Assembly (NCBI GenBank): GCA_039802005.1
Contig: JBDRVV010000005.1
Location: forward strand, 1 to 64,000
Source: a candidate division WOR-3 bacterium
Lineage (GTDB): Bacteria; Hydrothermota; Tepidihabitantia; SM23-42; JAOAFX01
DNA length: 64,000 nt
Reading direction: 5' to 3'
The translations under genes and the position numbers were made by a program. Of the stretch, positions 6,821 to 10,154 are shown piece after piece (position 1 is the stretch's first letter; each line of letters begins with the position of its first letter). The notes below the pieces were generated by a model. It saw nothing but the letters and a program-made list of their open reading frames with translations, searched no databases and was not told the origin of the DNA.

Positions 6821-7723
6821 ATGCGCGAAACACTATATGACCAGATAGCGGCAAATAAGCGCAAGACATTTATTTTTATTGTCATCACCAGTCTGTTTCT
6901 TGGTGCGCTGGGATACATAGTCGTTGAACTACTACATTGGGGAACCGCAGGATATATCTTCTTCGGCCTTTTCATAGTCATTTACAACTTTGTTCTCTAT
7001 TATAATTCAGATAAGATTGCCCTTGCTTCAACCGGTTCGGTTCCGGCTGACCCAGAAGAATTTAAACAACTCCACAATGTTGTAGAGGAGGTAGCAATTG
7101 CCGCGGGTGTTCCAAAACCCAAGGTTTACATCACACCTTCACCCGCGCCCAATGCCTTTGCCACAGGAAGGAATCCCCAGAATGCAGCAGTTGCTGTAAC
7201 GACTGGTTTACTTGAAATTATGAATCGCGAAGAGCTACAGGGGGTCATCGCACATGAGATGGCACATATAAGAAATTATGACATTCTTTTGATGACCGTG
7301 GTCGCAGCAATCGGTGGTTTGATTGTTTTATTAAGGGACTTCTTTTTACGGAGTATGTTTTTAGGAGGCAGAAGAAAGAGCAATCGCAGCAGCAGGGGTG
7401 GTGGTATTTTGATACTAATCGGTCTTGTTCTCGCAATCATCGCACCGTTATTTGTCGCTTTGATAAGGGCAGCGATATCACGACAGCGTGAATATCTTGC
7501 CGATGCATCTGGTGCATATATAACCCGCTATCCCCAGGGGCTTGCCCAGGCGCTGGCAAAACTAAAACAGGCATATCAGCCAATGGCAAAGGCATCCCAG
7601 TCAAATGCCCATCTATTCATTGCCAGCCCATTCGGTAAAGATAGATTTAATATATCAAATCTGTTTTCAACCCATCCACCCATAGATAAAAGGATAGAAA
7701 GACTTAACAGCCTGGTTGTCTAA
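6821..7723 (+). CDS. htpX: HtpX-like membrane zinc metalloprotease
   Basis: M48 family protease of 300 residues that degrades misfolded membrane proteins. Two hydrophobic segments at about 20-40 and 45-65 precede the catalytic HEMAH zinc motif near 145. Further membrane segments follow, then the third-ligand region REYLADASGAY. The HPPI(D)KRI motif near the C-terminus is typical of HtpX. It starts one base after lemA and presumably forms part of an envelope stress pair with it. The next gene begins 4 bases after its stop. Confidence 0.95.
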   Translation: MRETLYDQIAANKRKTFIFIVITSLFLGALGYIVVELLHWGTAGYIFFGLFIVIYNFVLYYNSDKIALASTGSVPADPEEFKQLHNVVEEVAIAAGVPKPKVYITPSPAPNAFATGRNPQNAAVAVTTGLLEIMNREELQGVIAHEMAHIRNYDILLMTVVAAIGGLIVLLRDFFLRSMFLGGRRKSNRSSRGGGILILIGLVLAIIAPLFVALIRAAISRQREYLADASGAYITRYPQGLAQALAKLKQAYQPMAKASQSNAHLFIASPFGKDRFNISNLFSTHPPIDKRIERLNSLVV

Positions 7724-7727
7724 AAAA

Positions 7728-8468
7728 ATGAATGTCAAACATTTTATAAAAGTATTATCTTGTTTATTTTTACTCGTAATTCCTATTGATCTTTCATTCG
7801 GGAAAAATTTAAAATTCTTTCCTATAGGTGAAAAACTTGAATACGAGGCACGATTTGGCTTAATAAATCTTGGTAATATGGCTTTGCAAATTATAGATAC
7901 AACGACTGTCAATGGTAAACAATGTTATCTTATCTCATCTCATCTTAATTCCAGTTCTGATTTGAACTTTCTCTTCACCTTAAATGATACGATAAATGTC
8001 ACCACAACAATAAATGATTTAATACCGGTTTTTTATGAAAAAAGAATACACGAAGGTAAATACACAAATTATCAGAAATTGAACTTCAATCAGGATAGTT
8101 TATATGTAATAATCAATGATTCATCAAGGATAAAAATTTCTCAGCCAGTAATGGACCTGCTCAGTTTCTGGTATTATTTAAGACGCATACCACTGGTTGA
8201 AAACGATACAATCGTGCTCTATATATTTGAAGCAAAACAGCAACACAGAATAGATTGTGTGGTGGGGAAAAAAGAAATTATAAAAACACCGTTGGGCAAA
8301 TTTTCAACAATTCGCGTAACACCAAAAACTTCTAACAAAGGTGTGTTCGGTGCGGGTGGTTCAATGGATATATGGTACACAAATGACGAAAACAGATTTC
8401 CGGTCCAGATAAAGACAAAACTAAAATTCGGTACTGTATTATTTAAACTGAAAGAGGTGTCTAATTAA
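7728..8468 (+). CDS. DUF3108 family exported protein
   Basis: A 246-residue protein with an N-terminal signal peptide (hydrophobic run ending LSFG) and a beta-rich body matching the DUF3108 pattern (GEKLEYEARFG near the start; a late DIWYTNDENRFPVQI segment, where such proteins interpret the polymer or lipid they bind). The function of DUF3108 proteins is not established; they are thought to be periplasmic or outer-membrane associated. ATG 7728 is preferred over an in-frame TTG at 7716 that overlaps htpX. The stop codon overlaps the ATT start of manC by one base. Confidence 0.8.
   Translation: MNVKHFIKVLSCLFLLVIPIDLSFGKNLKFFPIGEKLEYEARFGLINLGNMALQIIDTTTVNGKQCYLISSHLNSSSDLNFLFTLNDTINVTTTINDLIPVFYEKRIHEGKYTNYQKLNFNQDSLYVIINDSSRIKISQPVMDLLSFWYYLRRIPLVENDTIVLYIFEAKQQHRIDCVVGKKEIIKTPLGKFSTIRVTPKTSNKGVFGAGGSMDIWYTNDENRFPVQIKTKLKFGTVLFKLKEVSN
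8454..8459 (+). promoter_or_regulatory. Shine-Dalgarno that decides the manC start
   Basis: GAGGTG four bases before an ATT codon at 8464. There is no ATG, GTG or TTG in frame between the upstream in-frame stop (8449-8451) and the region encoding the catalytic signature, so this site supports ATT initiation. Confidence 0.65.
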
Positions 8469-9501
8469 AAGATTTGCGATAATTCTTGCAGGAGGACAGG
8501 GAGAAAGGTTCTGGCCCTTGAGTCAGCCGGACTTTCCCAAACAATTTATCAATATATTCCATAATAAACCATTGATAAATCAAACAATTGAACGAATCAG
8601 TGGCTATTTCAAAAAAAATGAGAGATTTTTAGTGATTCCCGAAGAACTGAGGGGCATAACAAAAAGATTTGTCGGGAACGAAAATCTTATCATTGAGCCG
8701 GCACGAAGAAATACCGCACCAGCAATATGCCTTTGTGCAATGTCGTTAAAAGAAAAATATGGTGATGGAATAATTCACATAATGCCTGCCGACCATATCA
8801 TTAAAGACAATAAGAAATTCATTGAATGTCTTAAATATGGAGAGGCGATGGCGGAAAAAGAATTTCTGGTTACCTACGGTATAGTACCTGAAAGACCCGA
8901 GACAGGCTATGGTTATATAAAAATCGGAAAAGAGATTGTTAAAGATAAAAGGCTCACTGGATTTTATGGTGAGGGGTTCACTGAAAAACCCTCAATCAAT
9001 AAAGCAAAAGAATATCTGAAATCCAAAAGATATTTATGGAATAGCGGAATATTTACCTATAGAATAAGCACGGTACTTAAAGAAATAAAGAAATTCGTTC
9101 CAGATGTCTATAATGGGGTAGAAAAATATTTAAAATTTAAAGACAAGAAATACTTTGAAAAAATTTCTGAAATATCAATAGATTATGGAATAATGGAAAA
9201 AAGTAATAAAATATGCGTAATAAAATCCGACTTTGGCTGGGATGATGTTGGGACCTATCTTGCCCTGGAGAGATATTTCATAAAAGACAAAAATGGCAAC
9301 ATCTTTTTAGGAGATATTTTGGGTCTTGAAACGAGTAATTCAATTATATATACTAATAGTGTCCCAGTCGGGGTCTTTGGAATAAATGGGCTTATTGTTG
9401 TGGCAAGCCCTAAGGGAGTCCTTGTATGCAAAAAGCAAAGGGCTCCGGAGTTAAAAAAACTTCTTTCTTTTTATAAGGAAAAGAAAAAAAGGAGGTTATG
9501 A
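8464..9501 (+). CDS. manC: Mannose-1-phosphate guanylyltransferase, ATT start
   Basis: Makes GDP-mannose from GTP and mannose 1-phosphate. The nucleotide-binding signature LAGGQGERFWPLS lies at residues 8-20 only if translation begins at ATT 8464. Starting at the first conventional codon (TTG 8518) removes it and would leave a dead enzyme. Other family marks are PADHII near 105, the ERPETGYGYI and GFTEKPS segments, WNSGIF near 180 and the FGWDDVGT loop near 255. At 345 residues this is the short form without the mannose-6-phosphate isomerase domain. It overlaps the DUF3108 gene by 3 bases (8466-8468) and the SPOR gene by 4. The product could feed the GT2 mannosyl transferase at 49 kb. Confidence 0.9.
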   Translation: MKRFAIILAGGQGERFWPLSQPDFPKQFINIFHNKPLINQTIERISGYFKKNERFLVIPEELRGITKRFVGNENLIIEPARRNTAPAICLCAMSLKEKYGDGIIHIMPADHIIKDNKKFIECLKYGEAMAEKEFLVTYGIVPERPETGYGYIKIGKEIVKDKRLTGFYGEGFTEKPSINKAKEYLKSKRYLWNSGIFTYRISTVLKEIKKFVPDVYNGVEKYLKFKDKKYFEKISEISIDYGIMEKSNKICVIKSDFGWDDVGTYLALERYFIKDKNGNIFLGDILGLETSNSIIYTNSVPVGVFGINGLIVVASPKGVLVCKKQRAPELKKLLSFYKEKKKRRL

Positions 9502-10154
9502 TGAAGAAGTTGCTGATATTGGGTGTTATTATGCTTTTTGTATTCTGTGCACCCAAAAAGACCACGGTAAAGACAGAGGGGCTGGAAGAAGTCGTTGTAT
9601 TTGGTGAAGAAGGAAAGAATATTTCTGAAGAACCGGTCTATCCAACCCCTGCGCCAGTACCCGCAACCCCTGCGCCAGTACCGGAAACCCCGGCACCAAC
9701 ACCCGAAGTCTCCGCGCCGCCAACAGAGGCACCTGCATTACCGCCCGCGATTGAAGAAACTCCTGCGCCCATGGAAGAAGTAACAATTGCCCCGCCTGTT
9801 CCCACACCAGTTGCACCATTGCCCATGGAAGAAGTAACAGCATTACCACCAATTCCTGCCCCTGCCCCCACCTATACACCCTCACCATCTCCATCGCCAT
9901 CAACCACACCTGCGTCAATTTATGGTTTCAGGGTTCAAATATTTGCCTCATCAACACAAAAAGGTGCTTCAAAGGTTGCTGACGATGCGCGAGGTCTATT
10001 TGGTGGTAAGGTATATATTGAGCACACCCCTCCATACTACAAAGTCCGCATTGGAGATTGCCTCACAAAGGAAGAAGCAGAATCTCTAAAAAATCTTGCA
10101 ATAAGTAAGGGTTTCAGGGGTGCATTTGTCGTTGAGACAATGATAAACCCTTAA
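9498..10154 (+). CDS. SPOR-domain lipoprotein with Pro-rich linker
   Basis: A 218-residue cell-envelope protein. The N-terminus carries a lipoprotein signal (hydrophobic run then LFVFC, Cys near 17). A proline/alanine/threonine-rich spacer at about 50-140 is followed by a C-terminal SPOR domain (GFRVQIFASS to the end). SPOR domains bind denuded septal peptidoglycan, so a role in division or wall remodelling is likely. ATG 9498 overlaps the manC stop; ATG 9501 has better spacing from AAAGGAGG and may be the real start. The proline repeats create long shadow frames on both strands. Confidence 0.88.
   Translation: MMKKLLILGVIMLFVFCAPKKTTVKTEGLEEVVVFGEEGKNISEEPVYPTPAPVPATPAPVPETPAPTPEVSAPPTEAPALPPAIEETPAPMEEVTIAPPVPTPVAPLPMEEVTALPPIPAPAPTYTPSPSPSPSTTPASIYGFRVQIFASSTQKGASKVADDARGLFGGKVYIEHTPPYYKVRIGDCLTKEEAESLKNLAISKGFRGAFVVETMINP

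Follow-up and report, generated by a model that had tools for sequence, protein, structure and literature searches.

The manC gene in the window (the whole 64,000-nucleotide stretch of DNA that was analysed, from a candidate division WOR-3 bacterium) very probably has ATT 8464 as its start codon, as judged by comparison with related genomes, and an N-terminal (f)Met presumably lies there. Nearly the whole uncultured order to which the bacterium belongs keeps this codon, whose third base at the same time opens the stop codon of the upstream DUF3108 gene. It is very probable, from the comparisons given below, that manC is translated by Shine-Dalgarno (SD)-guided initiation at AUU; this start would be weak, probably IF3-sensitive and presumably coupled to termination of DUF3108.

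The manC locus

Read from TGA 8449-8451, the manC frame runs AAG AGG TGT CTA ATT (8464) AAA AGA TTT GCG ATA ATT CTT GCA and onward GGA GGA CAG GGA GAA AGG TTC TGG CCC TTG (8518). No ATG, GTG or TTG occurs in this frame between TGA 8449 and TTG 8518, and the ATT is the only candidate start of manC in the window that is linked to an SD sequence (Table 1). A sequence-only reading of the window had proposed that the frame is open only back to the stop at 8449-8451, that the guanylyltransferase signature is encoded before the first ATG, GTG or TTG, that ATT 8464, preceded by GAGGTG, is the sole plausible initiator and overlaps the DUF3108 stop by one base, and that automatic annotation would truncate an essential motif; every one of these points holds on inspection. 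With no earlier canonical codon to choose, a gene finder using table 11 begins manC at TTG 8518 and loses LAGGQGERFWP.

Could the shorter protein be the real one? TTG 8518 comes first among the canonical codons and is where table-11 open reading frame finding places the start, but a ManC that began there would lack the nucleotide-binding signature LAGGxGERFWP, which is conserved in all relatives. Depending on the genome, the first canonical codon inside manC lies at residue 5, 7, 18, 36, 53, 61, 69, 89 or 92. A downstream start is therefore rejected, as these codons stand at no common place, and it must be considered extremely unlikely.

Table 1. Positions of features in the window and, for the last three rows, elsewhere in the window's genome (G000)
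Feature	Position	Strand	Basis
DUF3108 gene, upstream of manC; ATG 7728, stop TAA 8466-8468	7728..8468	+	Pfam PF11306, E=8.6e-37; ORF list
In-frame stop TGA closing the manC frame upstream	8449-8451	+	Sequence and translation
Shine-Dalgarno-like GAGGTG	8454-8459	+	Sequence; spacer to ATT of 4 nt
Proposed manC start codon ATT	8464-8466	+	ATT in 22 of the order's 23 manC genes, TTG in 1
ATTAA, manC start plus DUF3108 stop TAA (8466-8468)	8464..8468	+	T8466 common to both
manC, mannose-1-phosphate guanylyltransferase, 345 aa from ATT	8464..9501	+	PF00483, PF22640, TIGR01479, 2x5s/2cu2
Signature LAGGQGERFWPL	8485..8520	+	Translation; upstream of or ending at first canonical start, TTG 8518
SPOR-domain gene, downstream of manC; ATG 9498	9498..10154	+	Sequence, ORF list, domain match
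aspS, aspartate--tRNA ligase	G000:C7:13851-15554	-	L147/L255; order set L256-L281
infC	G000:C4, about 44219	-	L128; order set L111-L134
4Fe-4S cluster protein gene, 497 aa	G000:C6:42762-44252	-	L299/L315, L316, L317

The product carries an NTP_transferase domain (PF00483), which holds the N-terminal signature, and a GMP beta-helix domain (PF22640), both above cut-off. Against TIGR01479, the profile of the bifunctional GMP/PMI enzyme, it scores 298.6 bits over profile positions 3-350 of 467, missing the cut-off of 372.95, and the C-terminal phosphomannose isomerase part of that profile is absent. On these two grounds ManC is a single-function mannose-1-phosphate guanylyltransferase. Its relatives of known structure are the guanylyltransferases 2x5s and 2cu2; residue 2 of the Thermus protein 2cu2 aligns with residue 2 of ManC, so that Met1 of 2cu2 falls on the ATT codon.

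The gene order is M48 peptidase, DUF3108, manC and SPOR-domain protein, and an ortholog of the SPOR-domain gene adjoins manC in the order-mate G005 as well. At the other end of manC, its stop TGA 9499-9501 and the ATG of the SPOR-domain gene run together as ATGA (window 9498-9501). From DUF3108 through manC to the SPOR-domain gene, each start thus overlaps the stop of the gene before it. The DUF3108 gene has a further in-frame TTG at 7716.

Conservation of the start codon

Of the 27 genomes of the order, most of them drafts, 23 yielded a manC gene, and the encoded proteins have a median pairwise identity of 60% (minimum 52%). The start column holds ATT in 22 of these genes and TTG in one, that of genome G003. 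How unusual is this constancy? Seven other near-invariant isoleucine columns of the same 22 genes have ATT in 1-15 of the 22, never in all, and ATT makes up 28% of all their isoleucine codons. The invariance of ATT at the start column, set against mixed ATT, ATC and ATA at the other isoleucine columns, is no chance effect. Given the relatedness of the genomes, 22 of 22 does not stand for 22 independent events, and a simple product of probabilities would overstate the case; the columns contrasted, however, all belong to one set of manC sequences.

An in-frame stop lies just one codon before ATT in 13 of the 22 genomes. In 20 of the 22, as in the window, the frame offers no ATG, GTG or TTG between the in-frame stop and ATT, ahead of the conserved N-terminus; the exceptions, G012 and G011, have a TTG at most four codons upstream, and an alternative start is possible in these two. 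Among the relatives, G-[AG]-G-G-T occupies positions -10 to -6 relative to ATT almost everywhere. The only 16S 3' end found, that of G005, carries GGATCACCTCCTTTC, with the normal anti-SD CCTCC.

Alignment of the locus in related genomes had been suggested by the sequence-only reading, with an ATG in other strains as the sign of a sequencing error. Among the 23 genes none has ATG. The source is indeed a draft assembly of 62 contigs, in which ATG could have been misread as ATT or an upstream start hidden by a frameshift error, but an identical ATT, with matching upstream stop and SD sequence, occurs in 22 species-level genomes. These relatives refute the idea of an error, the chance of which is negligible.

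RNAalifold gave no conserved fold around the manC start, folding energies there are near the local background, and no Rfam family matches the region. An RNA switch at the manC start was rejected for lack of both an Rfam family and an RNAalifold structure.

Each of the 87 homologues examined outside the order has a canonical start at most 16 codons upstream of the motif, and in 47 of the 87 an ATG stands in exactly the ATT column. In the manC tree the order forms one fully supported clade, within which the position of G003 is weakly supported. The simplest history would be a change from ATG to ATT at the base of the order, followed by a single change to TTG in G003; alternatively, the manC gene of G003 might never have had ATT.

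The overlap with the DUF3108 stop codon

The manC and DUF3108 frames overlap by 5 nt (8464-8468). In 21 of the 23 genomes (19 tabulated, plus L005 and L023 read by eye from their sequence contexts) the DUF3108 stop, TAA or TAG, begins on the third base of ATT, giving ATTAA or ATTAG. Why is the start ATT and never ATC or ATA? Its third base doubles as the first base of the stop, and canonical NNG starts are excluded from the 5-nt overlap for the same reason, as the third base must be T. The last DUF3108 sense codon before the stop varies by genome (AAT, TAT, CAT or GAT), so that it is ATT that is constrained rather than the C-terminus of DUF3108. A simulation study has pointed out that short overlaps of such phase need the rare ATT start and must otherwise be long (PMC3887535).

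Two genomes depart from this arrangement. In G003, DUF3108 ends upstream (TAA C TTG), there is no overlap, and manC starts with TTG. In G016 one extra base carries the DUF3108 frame to a stop at +16, about 17 bases into manC, and ATT is kept; the one-base shift (L009, G016:C1:110061) may be an indel error or may reflect a genuine, longer overlap.

Might the overlap be no more than a frozen accident, in which AUU initiation is real, has no regulatory role and persists only through the DUF3108 stop? T is the only base that can serve both codons, and a change of T8466 to G would remove the stop and extend DUF3108 into manC, the next stop in frame lying about 30 to 230 nt further on; in G003, where the overlap is gone, the start is canonical. 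On the other hand, G016 retains ATT despite the shifted upstream frame, release of the kind seen in G003 was reached only once, and aspS, discussed below, keeps ATH starts in 25 of 26 genomes with no shared stop base in 24 of 25. A non-regulatory frozen overlap is compatible with AUU initiation and quite possible, though the lesser part of our expectation rests with it.

A different reading dispenses with a manC start: a programmed +1 frameshift would fuse DUF3108 to ManC. In prfB an SD-like sequence precedes the stop at a programmed +1 frameshift site, and here too the frames stand in +1 relation, with a G-rich SD-like sequence a few bases before the stop. There is, however, no conserved slippery codon, and the tRNA reading AAT, TAT, CAT or GAT would mispair with ATT at two positions. 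The 13 genomes with the nearest in-frame stop leave a window of just one codon for the shift, the frames of G003 are separated and its manC starts with TTG, and homologues outside the order have ATG at the ATT column. Such a fusion is very unlikely.

Other genes with ATH starts

Is an ATT start a habit of these genomes or a property of a few genes? Ortholog starts were surveyed between 1.20 Mb of the window's genome (G000, about half of it) and 1.20 Mb of G005, where 430 reciprocal-best ortholog pairs remained after exclusion of antisense shadow open reading frames. The pattern sought was an SD-linked ATH codon combined with protein conservation that, in both genomes, extends N-terminally of the first canonical start. 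Only manC, with the top score, and aspS showed it among the 430 pairs, and reciprocal mapping of canonical starts between G000 and G005 yielded no more clear ATH cases. The motif GGAGG-N-ATHAAR is not enriched (48 occurrences, 65 in the reversed control). With only two genes among 430 pairs and no motif enrichment, a genome-wide ATT start habit was rejected.

The aspS start, in the 26 genomes of the order where it is readable, is ATC in 14, ATT in 9, ATA in 2 and ATG in one (G003); four aspS genes of sister families in the class have an N-terminal ATG. The gene upstream of aspS stops before the start codon in 24 of the 25 genomes with ATH. The aspS start thus drifts among ATC, ATT and ATA without a shared stop, and that of manC is pinned to ATT, which supports both halves of the explanation, initiation at a noncanonical codon and its fixation by the overlapping stop.

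Among 24 genomes, infC has an ATT start in 22 and an ATC start in the other 2, after AAGGAGGTG, the site in the order being AAGGAGGTGNNN-ATT-AAR. An in-frame GTG stands two codons ahead of it and will probably be mis-called as the infC start. IF3 itself is encoded in 24 of the 27 genomes, as judged by a match to PF05198. Sequence comparison thus indicates that ATH starts are kept in the order by three genes, infC, aspS and manC, and not by the genome at large.

G003 has canonical starts in manC (TTG, L021) and aspS (ATG, L258), and its infC still has ATT (L134); its IF3 or initiation machinery may differ. A 4Fe-4S cluster protein gene has an apparent ATA start after GGAGG in the three genomes of the window's genus, and in G000 the upstream stop overlaps this start as ATAA; in other genera the starts seem to be mixed, and some genes seem to have no obvious canonical start.

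What goes beyond the earlier reading of the window is the invariance of ATT through the first base of the upstream stop, the ATH start of aspS and the ATG in the same column of outgroup genes.

Proposed mode of initiation

Guided by the SD sequence GAGGTG, the ordinary initiator tRNA would read AUU 8464 as fMet. An ARAGORN scan over most of 1.2 Mb of the genome found two Met (CAT) tRNAs and one ordinary Ile (GAT) tRNA; an unusual initiator tRNA was rejected, weakly, as the scan covered most of 1.2 Mb only. A tRNA-SeC (selenocysteine) gene is predicted in the same genome at L159:2518-2611 (G000:C1).

The first U of UAA 8466-8468 is shared with AUU, so a ribosome that terminates DUF3108 is already at the manC start, and it could re-initiate on the overlapping AUU. 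Of 14 overlapping stop/start pairs tested, 13 proved to be coupled (PMC6728339), and re-initiation is reduced by excess IF3 (PMC2268962). Noncanonical starts are repressed by IF3, and E. coli infC has ATT (PMC5472188); in Staphylococcus aureus, cvfC1 with AUU and ccpN with AUA have an extended SD and give lower output than with AUG (PMC13009471). As a start, AUU is weak and normally disfavoured by IF3, and hence low, IF3-sensitive manC output is to be expected; it would be tied to DUF3108 translation and respond to IF3 as infC does.

Comparison with known systems

One of the nearest parallels is infC, the gene of IF3 in E. coli and many bacteria, which like manC has AUU after a strong SD, and whose site in the order is nearly the same as that of manC. 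In infC the feedback is known, IF3 repressing its own AUU, whereas manC codes for an enzyme of metabolism and has an AUU that lends a base to the upstream stop. The S. aureus genes cvfC1 (AUU) and ccpN (AUA) share with manC a conserved ATH start and an extended SD (PMC13009471). Their starts were demonstrated by ribosome profiling and reporters, and that of manC is proposed from sequence comparison; cvfC1 opens its operon, but manC is internal, with an overlapping gene in front.

Streptomyces sigR (PMC5472188) resembles manC in having a noncanonical start that automatic annotation missed and that is conserved among relatives. It differs in that the start is GTC, the product is a sigma factor and the start is repressed by IF3, as tested with infC alleles, the ATT start of manC being proposed from sequence. 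In the coupled ATGA and TGATG pairs (PMC6728339), as in manC, stop and start share bases and the SD lies inside the upstream gene; those overlaps are 4 or 1 nt, and that of manC is 5 nt.

Significance

Gene finders do not see ATT starts: in many genomes of the order they would remove the catalytic motif from manC and shorten aspS. ATTAA and ATTAG constitute a conserved natural example of a short overlap phase that is possible only with an ATT start (PMC3887535).

Could the three genes be linked by a common control? It is conceivable, though on balance doubtful, that infC, aspS, manC and perhaps a few more are held at IF3-sensitive AUH starts, so that IF3 would tune the supply of GDP-mannose and Asp-tRNA to the ribosome balance, manC being coupled in addition to DUF3108 by the AUUAA or AUUAG overlap. 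If a metabolic gene and a tRNA-synthetase gene retain ATH starts across deep divergence, start-codon control of the IF3 type would reach further than the handful of genes for which it is known.
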